Assembly: GCA_036399055.1 (NCBI GenBank)
Contig: DASWNX010000044.1
Span: 1-61,566, forward strand
DNA length: 61,566 bases
Direction of reading: 5' to 3'
From: Jatrophihabitans sp.
GTDB taxonomy: Bacteria; Actinomycetota; Actinomycetes; Mycobacteriales; Jatrophihabitantaceae
Part shown: piece by piece, positions 2,953 through 11,589 of the stretch
How the letters are laid out: each line of letters starts with the position of its first letter
How positions within the stretch are numbered: position 1 is the first letter of the stretch
The notes under the pieces: generated by a model
Database searches by the model: none
What the model was told of the DNA's origin: nothing
The model's input: only the letters and a program-made list of their open reading frames with translations
Made by a program: the position numbers and the translations under genes

Positions 2953-3747
2953 CTAGACCGCGATCGGCGCTTTGATCGCCGGGTGGGGGTCATAGCCGTC
3001 CAGCTGCACGTCGGCTATCTCGAACTCGCTCAGCTGACGGCGTGCCGGGTTGAGCCGCAGGGTGGGCAACTGCCGGGGCTCGCGGCTCAACTGCAGTTCG
3101 GCCTGCTCGACGTGGTTGAGGTAGAGATGGGCGTCGCCGAAGGTGTGCACGAACTCGCCAGGCTGAAGATCGGTCACCTGGGCGACGAAGTGGGTCAGCA
3201 GCGCGTAAGAGGCGATGTTGAACGGCACGCCGAGAAAGACGTCGGCCGAGCGCTGGTAGAGCTGGCAGGACAGCCGGCCCTCGGCGACGTAGAACTGGAA
3301 CATCGTGTGGCACGGCGGCAACGCCATCTGATCGACCTCGGCGACGTTCCAGGCGCTGACGATGTGCCGCCGGGAGTCGGGGTTGGTGCGGATCGAGTGC
3401 ACCACGTTGGCGATCTGGTCGATCTGACGGCCGTCCGGCGCCGGCCAGGACCGCCACTGGTGCCCGTAGACGGGCCCCAACTCGCCGTCGGGGCCGGCCC
3501 ACTCGTCCCAGATGCTGATGCCGTGCTGCTGCAGCCACCGCACGTTGGTGGAGCCTCGCAGGAACCAGATCAGCTCTCCGACCACCGATTTCATGTGCAG
3601 CTTCTTGGTCGTCACCGCAGGGAAGCCGTCAGCGAGGTCGAAGCGCAGCTGATGGCCGAACACGCTCAGGGTGCCGGTGCCGGTGCGGTCGTCCTTGCGC
3701 ACGCCCTTGTGCAGGACTGTGTCGAGGAGATCCAGATACTGCCGCAC
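2953..3747 (-). CDS. thyA: Thymidylate synthase ThyA
   Basis: Converts dUMP to dTMP using methylene-tetrahydrofolate in the cytoplasm. Starting at the GTG at 3745-3747 gives VRQYLDLL and exactly 264 residues, the canonical ThyA length. The frame stays open much further upstream, but those residues are unlike ThyA and overlap the divergent DUF2505 gene, so the longer start is rejected. The folate/dUMP loop [11 protein letters not shown] is at 21-31, the catalytic cysteine is C146 in LPPCHTMF, and the protein ends in the conserved [14 protein letters not shown]. dfrA, its common partner, does not follow; an FAD oxidoreductase gene does. Confidence 0.97.
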
Positions 3748-3819
3748 ACCGGCAACGGTAGCAGTGCCCAAGCGGACCCCCTGGACGCGTCGAGGCGCGT
3801 CATCGGCGATGATGCGGCT

Positions 3820-4317
3820 ATGAGATTGCGTGTGGAGACCTCTGCGCCCGCCACTGTCGAGCAGGCCTTCGCGAGCCGGGTCGAGCAGAGCGTCCGGGAG
3901 CAGGCCTGCCGTGAGTCCGGCGCGCTGTCCTACGACGTGCTGATCGAGCCGGCGTCCGACGGCGGCGCCCGGGTCCAGGTGCAGCGGGTGATGGCGCCGC
4001 AGGTTCCCGACTACATGCGCAAGTTCGTCGGCGAGAGCATCGCGATCGGCCAGGTCGAGCAGTGGAGCCCCCCGGGGCCGACCGGCGTCCGGACCGCGGT
4101 GGTCACAGTCACGGTCAAGGGCCAACCTGCCAGCATGAGTGGGTCGATCACGCTCTCACCCACGCCGGACGGCTCGACCGAACTGGTCACCGGTGAGGTC
4201 AAGGTCGCGATCCCGCTGCTGGGCCGCAAGATCGAGCCCGAGATCGTGAAGGTGATCGAAGCCGCGCTGCGCATCGAACAGCGGGTGGCCCAGGACTGGG
4301 TGCGCCAGAACCGCTGA
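3820..4317 (+). CDS. DUF2505 domain-containing protein
   Basis: A 165-residue protein matching the actinobacterial DUF2505 family, whose fold is thought to resemble SRPBCC/START-type lipid-binding domains; the biochemical role is unknown. It begins with [17 protein letters not shown], a typical beta-strand-then-helix opening, and has no signal peptide or membrane segment. The ATG at 3820 fits the family's usual start; the frame is open far upstream only because of antisense thyA. It is divergent from thyA with about 70 bases between the starts. Confidence 0.85.
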
Positions 4318-4459: not shown

Positions 4460-5284
4460 GTGCGGATTTCGGAGCTGGCCAAGCAGAGCGGCCTGCCGGT
4501 CGCGACGATCAAGTTCTACCTGCGCGAAGGTCTGCTGCCCTCTGGGGCGCCGATCTCGCGGACCCAGGCCGAGTACAGCGACTCGCACCTGGAAAGGCTC
4601 CGGCTGATCAGGGCGTTGCGTGACATAGCCGATCTGCCCGTCGCGACGGTCGGCACGGTGCTGGCTGCCGTCGATGACGACGCGCTCCCGCTGCTGGACC
4701 TGCTGGGTGTCACCCAGACGGCGGTCGCCGGCTCGAAGGGTTCGGCCTCGGCCACCGAGGCGGGCGTGGAGCTGGCCAGCCGGCTGCTGGCGGACCTGGG
4801 CTGGACGCTCACCGAGGACTCGCCGCTGGTCGACTCGCTGGCCCGGGTGCTCGACGTGCTGCGGGGGGAGGGGGAGCCGGTGGATGCCGAGAGCCTCAAG
4901 CCGTGGGCCGACGCGGCCAGGGCCGTCGCCGAGGTCGAGATGGATCACATCCCGGTCGAGGCCCCGCGTGCCGAGGCGGCCCACACCGTCGCCGTCGGCA
5001 CGGTGATCTACGGCGAGCTGCTGGCCCAGCTGCGCCTGGCGGCGCAGGAGGCGGTCAGCCTGGCTCGGTTCGGAGCCGAGACGCTGCCCGGACAGGCCCA
5101 CCCCGTGAAGGCGGCGCCGGCTGCGACAAAGCCGGGAGCCACCAAGCCGGGCGCCACCAAGCCAGGCGCCACCAAGTCAGGAGCCACCAAGCCGGCTGCC
5201 GTGAAGGCGGCTGCTGCGAAGGCGCCGGCGGCAGAGGGGGGACTCAGTCGCCGCGCAGCCGCGCAGCCGCGTTCTCGGGGGTGA
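4460..5284 (+). CDS. MerR-family transcriptional regulator with lysine/alanine-rich tail
   Basis: A 274-residue DNA-binding protein. The N-terminal winged helix-turn-helix is classic MerR (MRISELAKQSGLPVATIKFY, residues 1-20, then LREGLLPSGAPISRTQAEYS). The central part is helical and carries no recognised ligand cysteines. From about residue 215 the chain becomes low-complexity, with repeated GATKP units and KAAAAKAPAA-type runs like a histone H1 or HupB tail, which should bind DNA non-specifically. The GTG start at 4460 has aagggg about 7 bases upstream. The tail-coding 3' end overlaps the convergent galT 3' end by 41 bp. The inducer is unknown. Confidence 0.88.
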   Translation: MRISELAKQSGLPVATIKFYLREGLLPSGAPISRTQAEYSDSHLERLRLIRALRDIADLPVATVGTVLAAVDDDALPLLDLLGVTQTAVAGSKGSASATEAGVELASRLLADLGWTLTEDSPLVDSLARVLDVLRGEGEPVDAESLKPWADAARAVAEVEMDHIPVEAPRAEAAHTVAVGTVIYGELLAQLRLAAQEAVSLARFGAETLPGQAHPVKAAPAATKPGATKPGATKPGATKSGATKPAAVKAAAAKAPAAEGGLSRRAAAQPRSRG

Positions 5285-7323: not shown

Positions 7324-7419
7324 TCAGTCATCCTCTACGGGAAACTCCGGCAGCCGGCGGCCCACCAGGTCGTCGGCGTCGATGATGGTGTAGGCGTAAC
7401 CCTGCTTAGCTATAAACCG
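7324..7419 (-). pseudogene. Displaced 3' remnant of the XPB helicase gene
   Basis: The minus strand reads RFIAKQGYAYTIIDADDLV and then GRRLPEFPVEDD before a TGA at 7326-7324. The first part matches the C-terminus of the intact XPB gene 2.6 kb away (RFLAEQGYAYTIIDADDLV, then stop). The second part is a tail that the intact gene now lacks. I therefore read this as the original chromosomal 3' end, separated from its gene when the island between 7370 and 9957 inserted. A TAG (7422-7420), which is also the stop codon of the dGTPase-like gene, lies immediately before it in the same frame. Confidence 0.8.
7363..7406. repeat. Left att-like direct repeat (XPB 3'-end sequence)
   Basis: Copy A of a direct repeat whose copy B is 9952-9995. 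The core 7369-7398 is identical to 9958-9987 over 30 bases (gtcgtcggcgtcgatgatgg and onward). The 44-bp span has two mismatches, and a further matching aaccgct follows after a diverged patch. The repeats bound the A+T-richer island. Confidence 0.85.
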
Positions 7420-8409
7420 CTAGACCGCCGCCGGTACAGGCAGTCTTTGGAACATCTTTCCAGTCTTTCCGGCTGATAGGAAAGCGGTGATATCGAGCCT
7501 ACAAGGTGAAAAGTTGACAGCGGAAAGCGCTTCAGTGTCTGACATGGTCATAAGGTGCCGTAGGCCTCGCGGGTCCTTGCGGAGTTTTAAACTTGCTGCC
7601 ACTGCGGCGAGCACTTGGATTGCGTCTACTCCTTGCGCTCGAACTGCCGGGTGTTGATAAATTGTGGCCCAGTTGGACTGCCGTAGAGTGCCAAGCAACG
7701 AACATGCGTCTTTTTCGATTGAAATTACTCCAGTCCGACCTGATGCCCGTACAATGCTATTTATAAGTAGACCTTTCGTTTGGTTAGACTGTTCGGCAGA
7801 CGAGGCATTTATTGGGATTAGACCCGCTGTGGCTGCGTCGTGCAAGTCATCGAACAGGTATGCGATCCTGTCTGCCCAACTGACGACCTCACCCTCCGCA
7901 GTCTGCGGTGCGTTGGCATCCCACGGATGGTTTCTAACTCCGTCTAGAAGCTGTGGAGACAGGTCGACCATCCAATGGTCTAGGGCATCGGCTCCCCACG
8001 AGGCGTGGCCAGCACCAATCCTGCGCTCCTGCAAGAACCGCTCTCCTAAATGAGCGAAGGGCGCGTGCCCGCAGTCATGAGACAGTGCGATACTCTCTGC
8101 CAAGGCAACGTTCAAGCCCAGTTCGGCCGATAGCAGCCCAGCGATTCGAGCGACTTCCACCGAATGTGTCAGACGTTTACTCAATCCAGGCGTAGTCGAG
8201 TAAAACACTTGTGAAACATCACTCAAGCGGCTCAGATGCGGACCTTCGCCTATCAACTCTCGCTCACGGGCAAAGCGCTCCTTCTCGGCGCTACTCCAGT
8301 CTTGCCTATCAATCCGCGCGGTGGGGGCGAGGCTGAAGTGGGCGACACGCGTGCCATACGGGCCGGCAAACCCGAAGGAAGTGTCCAACCAGGAGCGCTT
8401 AAACCCCAT
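7420..8409 (-). CDS. HD-domain dGTP triphosphohydrolase-like protein
   Basis: A 329-residue metal-dependent nucleotide phosphohydrolase of the HD superfamily closest to dGTPases. Metal/active-site residues are in order: H82 (KRLTHSVEVARIAG), H111-D112 in HDCGHAPFAHLGE, H161 (RNHPW) and D180 in GEVVSWADRIAYLFDDL, which corresponds to the family's VVDLADDIAY motif. It is shorter than E. coli Dgt (about 505 residues) but complete around the HD core. Such enzymes convert dNTPs to nucleosides plus triphosphate, and some protect against phage by draining dNTPs. Its ATG overlaps the stop of the NrdR-like gene by 11 bases, so translation is coupled. The stop codon lies within the att-like XPB remnant. 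Base composition is unlike the backbone. Confidence 0.88.
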   Translation of the reverse strand: MGFKRSWLDTSFGFAGPYGTRVAHFSLAPTARIDRQDWSSAEKERFARERELIGEGPHLSRLSDVSQVFYSTTPGLSKRLTHSVEVARIAGLLSAELGLNVALAESIALSHDCGHAPFAHLGERFLQERRIGAGHASWGADALDHWMVDLSPQLLDGVRNHPWDANAPQTAEGEVVSWADRIAYLFDDLHDAATAGLIPINASSAEQSNQTKGLLINSIVRASGRTGVISIEKDACSLLGTLRQSNWATIYQHPAVRAQGVDAIQVLAAVAASLKLRKDPRGLRHLMTMSDTEALSAVNFSPCRLDITAFLSAGKTGKMFQRLPVPAAV

Positions 8410-9400
8410 CAGGATGAACCTCTTCTGCTATCGCCTTGCCTGTTGCGAGGAAGGGTGTCAGATCGATCAACGGTGACTCGTACTCAATCAGGCTGCGCAC
8501 TTCGTCAAGAAATGCATTCTCGGACCTGTGGCCTTTTGCCTTAGCGGCGAAGCGTAGATAGCCGAGTGGGCAGACGCTCCTTAGGATGAGAAGAGCGGCA
8601 GAGGACAACTGGCTGGAAGTGACTATGGCCTGCCCTTTGACGGTAGACAACACATATGCGCTGAGCGCGCCGCTTAACTCCCCGTTTGTGAGGGTGGGAC
8701 TGTTAGGAACGGCCACCTTCAGCCGCCGGGTCGCCGTGCTGAAACCTATCCAAAGCTTGGCAAGGGTGAAGTCTTCGCCGAAGCCAGGATTCCGGTTAAT
8801 CTTCGGCTTTTTAATTACCCACTGAGGGCGTTCCTCAACTCTAAGGTGACTGCGGTGAATATGAAATTTTTCCTCGGCCCATTTCAGGAATTCCTCAGCA
8901 GTCAGTGAGTCATTCCTGCTACTTTGAAACGTTGTCGCGTAGCGAAGCGCAGCAATTCCGTGTGTTGTTCGGAGCTCATCGATGACTGCTTTACCGATAG
9001 CTTCAGTATCCACGGCGACATGCTTCTCGAGATCAAGCCGGCGCATTACGTTGTATGCCACGGCTGCTGCCTCCCGTTCAGTCAAGTCATCCGCACCCGC
9101 AAGCATGATGCTGTGCTCCAGCGCGAACTTCCGGTTAAACGGCTCCTCAACTCCATTCCGACGTCTAACTAGGTAATCGAAATCTGTTGCTTCTTCTTTC
9201 GTGCCAAACTTATGGCCGTTGTTGCACTGCCGCTCTCGGATAATCTCCGTAGCCCCGCCCTTGGTGCGTATCACCTCGCAGGAAGCTCCGCACTTTGGAC
9301 ATTTGTACAGCGATTCTTTGGCCTTGGGGTTCTTTACACTGCTTGACACCTCGGCCTCGACATCATTCGACACGTTAAGCCTTTCCCGGTGGTCCACCAT
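8399..9400 (-). CDS. NrdR-like zinc-ribbon protein with two ATP-cone-like domains
   Basis: A 333-residue protein with an NrdR layout plus an extension. The zinc ribbon uses C34-x2-C37 and C59-x3-H63 (RERQCNNGHKFGTKEE, aligned to the NrdR RRRRCxxCxxRFTTxE block). The first ATP-cone (about 78-158) runs from VRRRNGVEEPFNRKFALEH to ELRTTHGIAALRYATTFQ. Residues about 194-290 repeat the pattern (WVIKKPKIN, FTLAKLWIGFSTA, then LRSVCPLGYLRFAAKAKG), which I read as a second, diverged ATP-cone. NrdR senses ATP/dATP and represses ribonucleotide reductase genes. Here the protein is coupled to a dGTPase, suggesting a nucleotide-sensing regulator. The ATG at 9400 gives the longest form but has no clear ribosome site; a GTG at 9373 preceded by gggaaagg is an equally good start. 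Confidence 0.85.
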   Translation of the reverse strand: MVDHRERLNVSNDVEAEVSSSVKNPKAKESLYKCPKCGASCEVIRTKGGATEIIRERQCNNGHKFGTKEEATDFDYLVRRRNGVEEPFNRKFALEHSIMLAGADDLTEREAAAVAYNVMRRLDLEKHVAVDTEAIGKAVIDELRTTHGIAALRYATTFQSSRNDSLTAEEFLKWAEEKFHIHRSHLRVEERPQWVIKKPKINRNPGFGEDFTLAKLWIGFSTATRRLKVAVPNSPTLTNGELSGALSAYVLSTVKGQAIVTSSQLSSAALLILRSVCPLGYLRFAAKAKGHRSENAFLDEVRSLIEYESPLIDLTPFLATGKAIAEEVHPDGV

Positions 9401-9430
9401 GGCGAGAGGAGGGACGCGATGCTGAGGGTG

Positions 9431-9479
9431 AGCCCCCTGCGGCCCGAGCCAGCTGGCAATGGCCCGAGCCGCGGGGGCT
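9431..9479. promoter_or_regulatory. Strong hairpin in the leader of the NrdR-like gene
   Basis: agccccctgcggc (9431-9443) pairs with gccgcgggggct (9468-9479), with one bulged base. The loop contains a repeat of ggcccgagcc. It lies between the small ORF stop (9483) and the NrdR-like start, with no U-tract. It could be an attenuator or an RNA-stability element. Confidence 0.55.
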
Positions 9480-9482
9480 GCC

Positions 9483-9581
9483 CTACGGCCTCTGACCCAG
9501 GGCTAGCTCGATGTGGATGGATCTGCCGCTGCAGATGACCATCGTGATCAAGATGAGCGCGTACACGTAGGCGTTGCTCAT
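9483..9581 (-). CDS. Possible 32-residue small membrane peptide
   Basis: MSNAYVYALILITMVICSGR followed by SIHIELALGQRP: a single strongly hydrophobic helix (residues 5-18) and a short polar tail. The ATG at 9581 has a strong purine-rich site (ggaggggaggcaagggc) just upstream, which is the main support. It could be a leader peptide, a small toxin-like membrane protein or a spurious ORF. The frame extends upstream to 9824, but that extension shows no recognisable domain. It lies in the island, upstream of the NrdR-like/dGTPase pair and separated from it by a stable hairpin. Confidence 0.45.
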   Translation of the reverse strand: MSNAYVYALILITMVICSGRSIHIELALGQRP

Positions 9582-9948
9582 GCCCTTGCCTCCCCTCCAC
9601 GGTGAGAAGTGAGGGGCGGCGTCTGCTTCTGGCTGCCGGCTTGCGGCAGGCCCAGTAACCTGATAGTTTTCTCTCGTCTTCCAAGACGGTAGATCTATCA
9701 ACGCCGTCCCGATGGACGGACCTCCGACCTCAACGATCACTAGTCGTTGGGGTCTTTGGTGTTTCTGACGGTATACGAAGAGGCCTGAATGCGCTACATA
9801 TTCGACCGGCGGCTCTTGCCTCACATCTGCCAGATGTACGGCTGGAGTGGCCTGTCTGGCTCAGCGGAGCGCCATTTGGCAAATTCGAACGTGCAATAAC
9901 GTCACTTGAGTTACTTGACCGATAGGTCGCGATATTGTGTGATGCAGG
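9582..9948. other. XPB-proximal end of the island, no firm gene
   Basis: About 370 bases without a supported gene. It presumably holds the promoter of the minus-strand small ORF/NrdR-like/dGTPase unit. The minus strand near 9931-9940 reads ACACAATATC, nine bases of which match one arm of the NrdR-box consensus (acaCwAtATaTwGtgt). Nearby is tcaagt-aac-tcaagt, a short direct repeat. No tRNA, integrase fragment or terminator is recognisable. Confidence 0.4.
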
Positions 9949-11589
9949 TCACACCAAGTCGTCGGCGTCGATGATGGTGTAGGCGTAGCCCTGCTCGGCC
10001 AGGAACCGCTGCCGGTGCGCGGCGTAGTCGGCGTCCAGGCTGTCGCGGCTGACGACGGTGTAGAAGTGCGCCTGCCTGCCGTCGTGCTTGGGCCGCAGCA
10101 CCCGTCCCAGCCGCTGGGCCTCCTCCTGGCGCGAGCCGAAGGTGCCCGAGATCTGGACCGCCACCGCCGCCTCGGGCAGGTCGATCGAGAAGTTGGCCAC
10201 CTTGCTGACCACCAGCACCCGGGTCTCGCCCGAGCGGAAGGAGTCATAGAGCCGCTCGCGCTCCCGGTTGGGAGTCGAGCCCTGGATGATCGGGATGTCG
10301 CCCAGATGCTCGGAGATCTCCTCCAACTGGTCGAGGTAGGCGCCGATCACCAGCACCTGGTCGTTCGGGTGCTGGTCGACGATCGCCTTGATCACCGGCA
10401 GCTTGGTGCGCGCGGTGGCCGCCAGCTTGTACTTGTCCTCGGGCTCGGCGGTGGCGTAGGCCATCCGCTCGGCGTCGGTCAGGGTCACCCGGACCTCGGA
10501 GCAGTCCGCCGGGGCGATCCAGCCCTGGTTCTCGATGTCCTTCCAGGGCGCGTCGTAGCGCTTGGGCCCGATCAGGGAGAACACGTCGCCCTCCCGGCCG
10601 TCCTCGCGCACCAGCGTCGCGGTCAGCCCCAGCCGCCGGCGCGACTGCAGGTCCGCGGTCAGGCGGAAGATCGGCGCCGGCAGCAGGTGCACCTCGTCAT
10701 AGACCACCAGCCCCCAGTCCCGGGAGTCGAACAGCTCTAGGTGCCGGTACTCGCCCTTACGCCGGGTCGTCATGATCTGGTACGTGGCGATGGTGACCGG
10801 CCGGATCTCCTTCTTCTCGCCGGAGTACTCGCCGATCTCCTCCTCGGTCAACGAGGTGCGGGCCAGCAACTCCCTCTTCCACTGCCGTCCGGAGACGGTG
10901 TTGGTGACCAGGATCAGGGTGGTCGCCTTGGCCTGGGCCATCGCCGCCGCGCCGACCAGGGTCTTGCCGGCGCCGCAGGGCAGCACCACCACGCCCGAGC
11001 CGCCGGCCCAGAAGGAGTCCACCGCCTGCTGCTGGTAGGGCCGCAGCGTCCAGTCGGCGTTGTCCAGCTCGATCGGGTGCGCCTCGCCGTCGACGTAACC
11101 GGCCAGGTCCTCGGCCGGCCAGCCGACCTTGAGCAGCGCCTGCTTGAGCCGGCCACGCTCGGACGGGTGCACCAGCACGGTGTCGGAGTCGATCCGCTCG
11201 CCCAGCATCGGGGCGATCTTCTTCTGCCGCAGCACCTCCTCCAGCACCGCGCGGTCCAGGCTGATCAGCACCAGGCCGTGCACCGGGTGCTTGGCCAGCT
11301 GCAGCCGGCCGTAGCGGTCCATGGTGTCGGCGACGTCGACCAGCAGCGCGTGCGGCACCGTGTAGCGGGAGAAGCGGACCAGGGCGTCGACGACCTGCTC
11401 GGCGTCGTGGCCGGCGGCGCGCGCGTTCCACAGCCCCAGCGGCGTCAGCCGGTAGGTGTGCACGTGCTCGGGAGAGCGCTCCAGCTCGGCGAACGGCGCG
11501 ATGGCCGCGCGGGCCTCTCCGGCCATCGGATGGTCGACCTCGAGCAGCAACGTCTTGTCGGATTGGACGATCAGGGGTCCGTCGGTCAC
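9949..11589 (-). CDS. XPB-type (ERCC3-like) DNA repair helicase
   Basis: A 546-residue superfamily-2 3'-5' DNA helicase of the bacterial XPB group. The N-terminal damage-recognition-like domain precedes Walker A PCGAGKT (204-210) and the DEVH box at 298-301, then GLTATLVRED and the C-terminal helicase domain with QEEAQRLGRVLRP. The GTG at 11587-11589 (VTDGPLIVQSDKTLLLE) has gaggag nine bases upstream; a longer open frame upstream lacks family similarity. It lies downstream of the helicase-associated protein gene, as in Mycobacterium (Rv0862c-Rv0861c). Its C-terminus now ends DADDLV, with the extra GRRLPEFPVEDD tail stranded beyond the inserted island. Confidence 0.95.
   Translation of the reverse strand: MTDGPLIVQSDKTLLLEVDHPMAGEARAAIAPFAELERSPEHVHTYRLTPLGLWNARAAGHDAEQVVDALVRFSRYTVPHALLVDVADTMDRYGRLQLAKHPVHGLVLISLDRAVLEEVLRQKKIAPMLGERIDSDTVLVHPSERGRLKQALLKVGWPAEDLAGYVDGEAHPIELDNADWTLRPYQQQAVDSFWAGGSGVVVLPCGAGKTLVGAAAMAQAKATTLILVTNTVSGRQWKRELLARTSLTEEEIGEYSGEKKEIRPVTIATYQIMTTRRKGEYRHLELFDSRDWGLVVYDEVHLLPAPIFRLTADLQSRRRLGLTATLVREDGREGDVFSLIGPKRYDAPWKDIENQGWIAPADCSEVRVTLTDAERMAYATAEPEDKYKLAATARTKLPVIKAIVDQHPNDQVLVIGAYLDQLEEISEHLGDIPIIQGSTPNRERERLYDSFRSGETRVLVVSKVANFSIDLPEAAVAVQISGTFGSRQEEAQRLGRVLRPKHDGRQAHFYTVVSRDSLDADYAAHRQRFLAEQGYAYTIIDADDLV
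9952..9995. repeat. Right att-like direct repeat, inside the XPB gene 3' end
   Basis: Copy B of the repeat at 7363-7406. It encodes the last residues of the functional helicase (GYAYTIIDADDLV) and its stop codon. Identity is perfect over 9958-9987. Confidence 0.85.

Follow-up and report, generated by a model that had tools for sequence, protein, structure and literature searches.

Two overlapping genes on the minus strand of a 61,566-nt stretch of Jatrophihabitans sp. DNA (contig DASWNX010000044.1, hereafter the window) encode a 333-aa twin-cone NrdR-like protein, P1 (8399–9400), and a 329-aa HD protein of the dGTPase family, P2 (7420–8409). We tentatively read them as an acquired deoxynucleoside triphosphate (dNTP) hydrolase in the role of effector together with a nucleotide-sensing partner, which could act against phages by a logic resembling that of the Clover system with an unrelated regulator. 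Support for such a sensor–effector unit comes from the family of two-cone proteins to which P1 belongs, the intactness of P2, the gene overlap, the island carrying both genes, the defence-type neighbours of P1 relatives and the Clover precedent.

In the proposed mechanism, P1 and P2 would constitute a single horizontally acquired two-gene unit, with P2 as a dNTP triphosphohydrolase that empties one or more dNTP pools and with P1 binding adenine nucleotides (ATP, dATP or a related signal) through its two ATP-cones. Depending on the state of the pool, P1 would or would not hold P2 back, through direct contact with it or through repression of the shared operon; phage replication would shift the dNTP pool and release P2, and DNA synthesis would be blocked. 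Control of the hydrolase by a dNTP-sensing regulator had already been proposed in an initial annotation of the region, and with Clover as precedent it is the most economical reading; the failure to find a second such pair and the doubtful binding of P1 to NrdR boxes, both discussed below, count against it.

Organisation of the gene pair

The two reading frames overlap by 11 bp, as initially annotated, with P1 first and the start of P2 inside the end of P1, an arrangement that suggests coupled translation; an AGAGG motif is located about 9 nt 5' of the P2 ATG. No ribosome-binding site was found upstream of the P1 ATG and the relatives of P1 start at the ribbon, so that the exact position of its start codon is uncertain. 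P1 was recognised by its open reading frame (ORF), Pfam, TIGR00244, a hidden Markov model (HMM) of the ATP-cone and a structure-profile search, P2 by its ORF, Pfam, curated models and alignment. As the same genome contains its own NrdR-like gene and a second dGTPase-like gene elsewhere, the P1/P2 pair is accessory.

Zinc ribbon and two ATP-cones in P1

P1 begins with an NrdR-like zinc ribbon (residues 33–70, 9191–9304, minus strand) with the ligands C34-x2-C37 … C59-x3-H63, read from the residues themselves and from a Pfam Zn_ribbon_NrdR match of 13.9 bits, which is below the cut-off of 27.2. The final ligand is thus a His after a three-residue gap, where NrdR has a Cys after two. The ribbon is followed by a first ATP-cone (residues 77–161, 8918–9172, minus strand), which the Pfam model detects on residues 77–155 with 28.7 bits against a cut-off of 25.8. 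The annotated NrdR layout is therefore present, with the ribbon model remaining sub-threshold.

The initial annotation had also placed a second ATP-cone at about residues 194–290, and the C-terminal segment is, by profile comparison, a real second cone (residues 195–304, 8489–8818, minus strand). An HMM built from 14 canonical NrdR cones out of the fetched genomes scored the C-terminal half of P1 with 15.2 bits (best of 300 shuffles, 5.0) and those of seven P1 relatives with 31.4–52.3 bits, picking up this half in all eight twin-cone proteins with a maximum of 9.1 bits among all 2400 shuffles. A profile of four family members, searched against solved structures, placed the NrdR ribbon on the start and the NrdR cone on the C-terminal segment; with P1 alone as query, NrdR chains covered only residues 33–180, i.e., the ribbon and the first cone. 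Pfam recognised the ATP-cone in 8/8 family members and the NrdR ribbon in 7/8 (E up to 0.1). Consistently, 45 of 306 class genomes matched the family profile, the 44 matches outside the own genome being confined to model positions of at least 212, which correspond to the second cone.

Within P1, the first cone outscores the second by 32.5 to 12.4 bits and is the best-scoring first cone among the eight twin-cone proteins compared; in all seven relatives the second cone is the higher-scoring or the sole one detected. An AlphaFold model from a four-row alignment shows ribbon strands followed by two four-helix groups, a secondary structure consistent with the predicted ribbon and twin cones; at a mean predicted local distance difference test (pLDDT) of 49.2, the fold is not established in three dimensions. 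A C-terminal tail seemingly shared by P1 and P2 was discarded, as its local alignment score of 42 was reached by 91 of 1000 whole-protein shuffles; tail-only shuffles never reached it (0/1000) in a test picked after the match had been noticed.

Nucleotide- and DNA-contact residues of P1

In Streptomyces coelicolor NrdR, according to PMC9110341, K50, R51 and E56 make contacts to the inner ATP and K62 to the outer nucleotide; Y128 changes its orientation from the ATP to the dATP state, and DNA is bound through D15, R17 and an RRRR motif. In a cone alignment, the first cone of P1 retains the inner-site residues, with V, R, R, E and F at NrdR positions 48, 50, 51, 56 and 58, and has Phe in place of both K62 and Y128. 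The second cone carries E, F and K at positions 56, 58 and 62 and Ala (Ala288) at 128; its hairpin is ambiguous, as the cone alignment gives R and N at 50 and 51 and the family alignment V195 and K197 at 48 and 50. Tyr128 is absent from all 15 readable cones of the twin-cone proteins (16 in total, one being cut short). Nucleotide binding by P1 is plausible from these residues, and since Tyr128 is missing, its predicted ATP/dATP switch must differ from that of NrdR.

Mapped by eye on the alignment, the P1 ribbon has Arg45 for Asp15, Lys47 for Arg17 and I-R-E-R for RRRR. The separate NrdR-like gene of the host, in contrast, keeps D15, R17, RRRR, K50, R51, E56, K62 and Y128. P1 thus shares with NrdR (TIGR00244; PDB 7p37, 9fxk and others) the N-terminal zinc ribbon, the subsequent ATP-cone and the NrdR-type inner-site residues, and departs from it in the second cone, the Cys-x3-His ribbon end, the altered DNA-reading residues and the absence of Tyr128 from either cone. 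It is also longer than the 140–220 aa stated for NrdR in PMC9110341. Whether judged by the curated cut-off (TIGR00244, the NrdR equivalog model, 43.6 bits against 124.65) or by the predicted DNA-reading residues, P1 is not NrdR.

P2 as a divergent dGTPase-family protein

The HD domain of P2 (residues 79–184, 7858–8175, minus strand) is clearly detected by Pfam (53.9 bits vs a cut-off of 22), and the H…HD…H…D residues that had been annotated as typical of dGTPases are all present, namely H82, H111-D112, H115, H120-E123 and D180. The metal ligands and the HE dyad (H120, E123) are hence intact, and R61, Q67-V68, R79, H82, H111-D112, H115, H120, E123, D180, Y184 and D188 are invariant in P2 and seven relatives. 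Models of dGTPases are the closest curated matches, all below cut-off (best 105.2 vs 393 bits; TIGR01353, 69.1 vs 152.35 bits; NF041026, 50.4 vs 400 bits); the PADLOC dGTPase model gave 88.5 bits, its best stretch being limited to 33–128.

The best solved relative is PDB 2dqb, and the top-scoring chromosomal relatives show 35–40% identity over about 150–250 residues. P2 shares with the dGTPase/dNTP triphosphohydrolase family (PRK01286 group; PDB 2dqb) the HD domain, the metal ligands, the HE dyad and Gln67-Val68, and by these features it is a divergent family member, one that probably hydrolyses dNTPs. Unlike this family, P2 has a degenerate RDRDRI-x-H segment and does not lie beside dnaG, a dnaG-like neighbour being recognised by motif in 17 of 45 stretches with HD relatives (16 of 40 distinct places). 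Moreover, it reads VSQV where 7/7 aligned relatives have KTQV, and its C-terminal part is divergent. Residues 45–127 match an unnamed PHROGs family.

A small island at the XPB 3' end

Both genes are located on a low-GC island of about 2.5 kb (7423–9952), delimited by GC content at third codon positions (GC3) and by comparison with two genomes of the same genus (G395 and G397). Between about 7000 and 10000 the GC content dips from mostly 0.67–0.77 to 0.53–0.61, and GC3 is 0.60 for P1 and 0.56 for P2, compared with 0.90–0.94 in the flanking XPB, DeoR and GalT genes. The island is bounded by an imperfect 59-bp direct repeat (52/59 identical): the right copy (9953–10011) forms the 3' terminus of the XPB helicase gene, and the left copy (7364–7422), which resembles it, holds the stop codon of P2. 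In G395 and G397 the DeoR/GalT side follows within about 80 and 300 bp of the XPB gene, and no island is present.

A direct repeat derived from the 3' end of a gene is commonly seen where an element has integrated site-specifically at the end of a gene, and from its composition and boundaries the island looks like a foreign, horizontally acquired small element integrated at the XPB 3' end. P1 and P2 are its only ORFs of at least 150 aa. A search for tyrosine recombinases (PF00589) gave no match in the island or its contig and six on other contigs; serine recombinases were not sought. A thymidylate synthase gene (2956–4125, minus strand) lies a few kb from the island on a stretch that is retained in G395, and is hence not part of it.

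Twin-cone relatives of P1 and their neighbourhoods

A conjugative plasmid of Paenarthrobacter, plasmids of Rhodococcus and a Cryobacterium plasmid (seven plasmid records altogether) carry relatives of P1, as do genomes of Cellulomonas, Rhodococcus, Modestobacter and a member of the same phylum (G750). Seven of these twin-cone relatives share 23–31% identity with P1. The second cone is interrupted by a stop in the Modestobacter copy and the first by an in-frame stop in that of Cryobacterium, and one Rhodococcus plasmid retains the C-terminal part of the protein only. P1 relatives occur singly, in a variety of contexts. As no description of a twin-cone NrdR-like family was recognised among the titles and abstract starts listed from the open-access literature, these proteins may represent a rare, undescribed family on actinobacterial plasmids and islands.

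With regard to the suggested association with defence islands, restriction genes or others of defence type are found close to four of the ten twin-cone loci other than that of P1, a proportion without a background count. The G750 gene, a solo gene in a chromosomal region (locus L060, 1614–15001), is found among genes for a type II methyltransferase, GmrSD/HNH, an HNH endonuclease, NERD and a HerA-type ATPase; one Rhodococcus plasmid copy is located downstream of an HsdM-S-R set, and the Rhodococcus C-terminal fragment downstream of helicase-related, DUF1156 and DUF499 genes. In a Rhodococcus genome, the twin-cone gene adjoins a gene for a 964-aa protein (locus L073, 7497–10391, minus strand) with AAA matches and a NACHT match just under cut-off, a possible STAND-type defence protein by these domains. 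These neighbours are suggestive, although elements of this kind carry many defence genes in any case.

A viral origin of the pair was considered and rejected after searches of viral contigs, phage records and PHROGs. Four scans of viral contigs yielded no twin-cone relative, one of them giving two short ribbon-only ORFs, and one of two hydrolase scans gave nine dGTPase-like loci. Phage records contained no match to P1, one weak match (E 0.03) to the Paenarthrobacter relative and 14 dGTPase-like matches to P2; PHROGs has no twin-cone family. Two viral contigs (L046, at 5046–5240, and L047, at 4995–5189) encode 64-aa proteins made up of an NrdR-like zinc ribbon that have the Cys-x3-His end and no space for an ATP-cone.

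Search for further P1/P2 pairs

Co-occurrence of the pair in other genomes, which the initial annotation had led us to expect, was not observed in any of the genome sets scanned; the sets of the P1, family and P2 scans overlap. Among 394 class genomes, 15 including the own one matched P1 at E 1e-8, none of the others over the full span. Nine of 397 order genomes matched at 1e-7, with only the own protein at full length and eight genomes of the same genus lacking a match. An alignment-based scan of 396 phylum genomes found two matches, i.e., the own genome and G750, and the family-profile scan of 306 class genomes one full match. For P2, none of the hits in 61 relatives and 364 class genomes came close to the window's own score. 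The broadest scan (genome_contigs, 84,980 species) relied on one short pattern and revealed no second pair, which is a weak negative; four loci were confirmed of its ten stretches, one of them (L075) being a canonical NrdR.

Conversely, none of 45 stretches (40 places) with HD relatives, whose flanks ranged from under 1.5 kb to several kb, gave a cone match rising above noise, the best E-values being 0.014 and 0.057. Searches of the open-access literature found nothing joining an ATP-cone with a dGTPase; what was returned on NrdR together with dGTPase concerned, judging from the start of the abstract, the Caulobacter cell cycle, and on ATP-cone together with "defense system", likewise judging from the start of the abstract, crAss-like phages.

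Several observations weigh against an anti-phage sensor–effector pair. No second instance was found (0/10 other twin-cone loci, 0/40 HD places), and no HD gene lies within the stretches examined around the ten other loci, the Rhodococcus plasmid record GA1 being left out of this count; with relatives lacking an HD gene, P1 does not need P2. At six of the ten loci there is no clear defence neighbour, family searches having covered all of these but the Modestobacter one; they are surrounded by genes for conjugation, mobilisation or metabolism, by transposase genes and by genes without assignment, and one of them has a HicB antitoxin gene. In the window itself, the search for defence genes covered five neighbouring genes, of which four match XPB, a DeoR/GlpR-type regulator, GalT and thymidylate synthase and the fifth has no match. 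The changes of Asp15 to Arg and Arg17 to Lys make NrdR-box binding by P1 unlikely; no NrdR-box-like site was found in the window at three mismatches to the consensus. Furthermore, no sigma-70-like promoter was seen around the pair, where 1.2 would be expected by chance, and P2 reads RERELI-x-E where most relatives have the N-terminal RDRDRI-x-H. Finally, both AlphaFold models are weak (P2, likewise from a four-row alignment, has a pLDDT of 44.7), and hence the P1–P2 interface cannot be judged.

Comparison with known dNTPase defence systems

Clover is a two-gene anti-phage system of the dGTPase CloA and the nucleotidyltransferase CloB, in which dTTP activates CloA and a signal made by CloB holds it in check, and mutation of the CloB active site makes cells sick (PMC12265719). 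According to the same text, the silencing of dNTPase defence enzymes before infection was unexplained until Clover. Clover resembles the P1/P2 locus in its two-gene make-up, in an effector of the dGTPase family that shares the HD and HE motifs, and in a partner tied to nucleotides, a tie that is predicted for P1. CloA H69, H117-D118, H126-E129, D242 and Q53 have P2 counterparts by motif spacing, a correspondence made without a P2–CloA alignment.

However, the Clover partner is a Pol-beta nucleotidyltransferase, whereas P1 is a zinc-ribbon/ATP-cone protein without a match to nucleotidyltransferase models, and P2 with its 329 aa is much shorter than CloA, in which a mutated residue is numbered 452 (PMC12265719). 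Judged by these domains, P1/P2 is not Clover.

A single-gene anti-phage dGTPase was also reportedly described by Tal et al. in 2022, a study cited in PMC12265719. Such stand-alone enzymes (NF041026; PADLOC dGTPase) belong to the same effector family as P2, which differs in having an overlapping gene for a putative sensor.

Alternative explanations

An alternative that we regard as unlikely, albeit worth serious weighing, is a toxin–antitoxin-like or fitness module of a mobile element. The role of P2 would then be that of a toxin depleting dNTPs, with P1 as antitoxin or as an autorepressor, and the module would help to maintain the element or to keep dNTP homeostasis and would not be a phage defence as such. 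The overlapping genes with the regulator first, the small foreign island, the seven plasmid records with P1 relatives and the sickness caused by the active-site mutation of the Clover regulator (PMC12265719) would all fit such a module. Nevertheless, the plasmid relatives of P1 lack an HD gene in the stretches examined, so that the module itself is not what is spreading, and the island has no other ORF of at least 150 aa and thus lacks any replication or transfer gene for which addiction would be required.

We consider it distinctly unlikely that P1 is an independent regulator of mobile elements, acting e.g., on host nucleotide metabolism or on the expression of defence genes, with P2 adjacent by chance and no joint mechanism. 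The absence of an HD gene from all ten other twin-cone loci and of a cone gene above noise from the 45 HD stretches (40 places), as well as the solo occurrence of P1 relatives in varied contexts, argue for such independence. The 11-bp overlap with its suggested translational coupling speaks against it, as does the finding that P1 and P2 are the sole island ORFs of at least 150 aa; the first cone of P1, the best-scoring of eight, looks as if it were differently constrained. A decayed P2 devoid of hydrolase activity, which would be a nucleotide-binding sensor or a relic and deplete no pool, is improbable. The replacement of RDRDRI-x-H and KTQV by RERELI-x-E and VSQV and the divergent C-terminal part would fit such decay; the intact ORF and the retention of all metal ligands and the HE dyad, which would be unexpected in a relic, speak against it.

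Leader region upstream of P1

Apart from the two genes, the region 5' of P1 contains a candidate 32-aa leader ORF (9483–9581, minus strand), preceded by a GGAGG-type site, and, between this ORF and P1, a strong predicted RNA hairpin of about −41 kcal/mol (9432–9478, minus strand). The predicted fold of the 200-nt leader (9401–9600) pairs the ribosome-binding region of the leader ORF with the stretch directly 5' of the P1 start, and it has a z-score of −3.48 with none of 200 shuffles equally stable. The leader has no match in Rfam, and no homologue was found in plasmids or in ten relatives. By this prediction, leader ORF and hairpin could be a riboregulator or attenuator. One terminator-like site was seen around the pair, on the plus strand, where 2.5 would be expected by chance.

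Implications

ATP-cones are known for the control of dNTP synthesis, and we know of no earlier role for this domain in dNTP breakdown. A broader view, rather doubtful at this stage, is that a twin-cone protein freed from NrdR boxes serves in immunity by directly switching a dNTP-destroying enzyme according to the nucleotide state, and that P1 belongs to a wider mobile family of sensors combined with various effectors. If the acquired sensor–effector reading of P1 and P2 is true, they would represent a second, unrelated type of regulator; dNTPases would then have been coupled to the sensing of nucleotide pools on more than one occasion, and the ATP-cone would gain a role in the breakdown of dNTPs.

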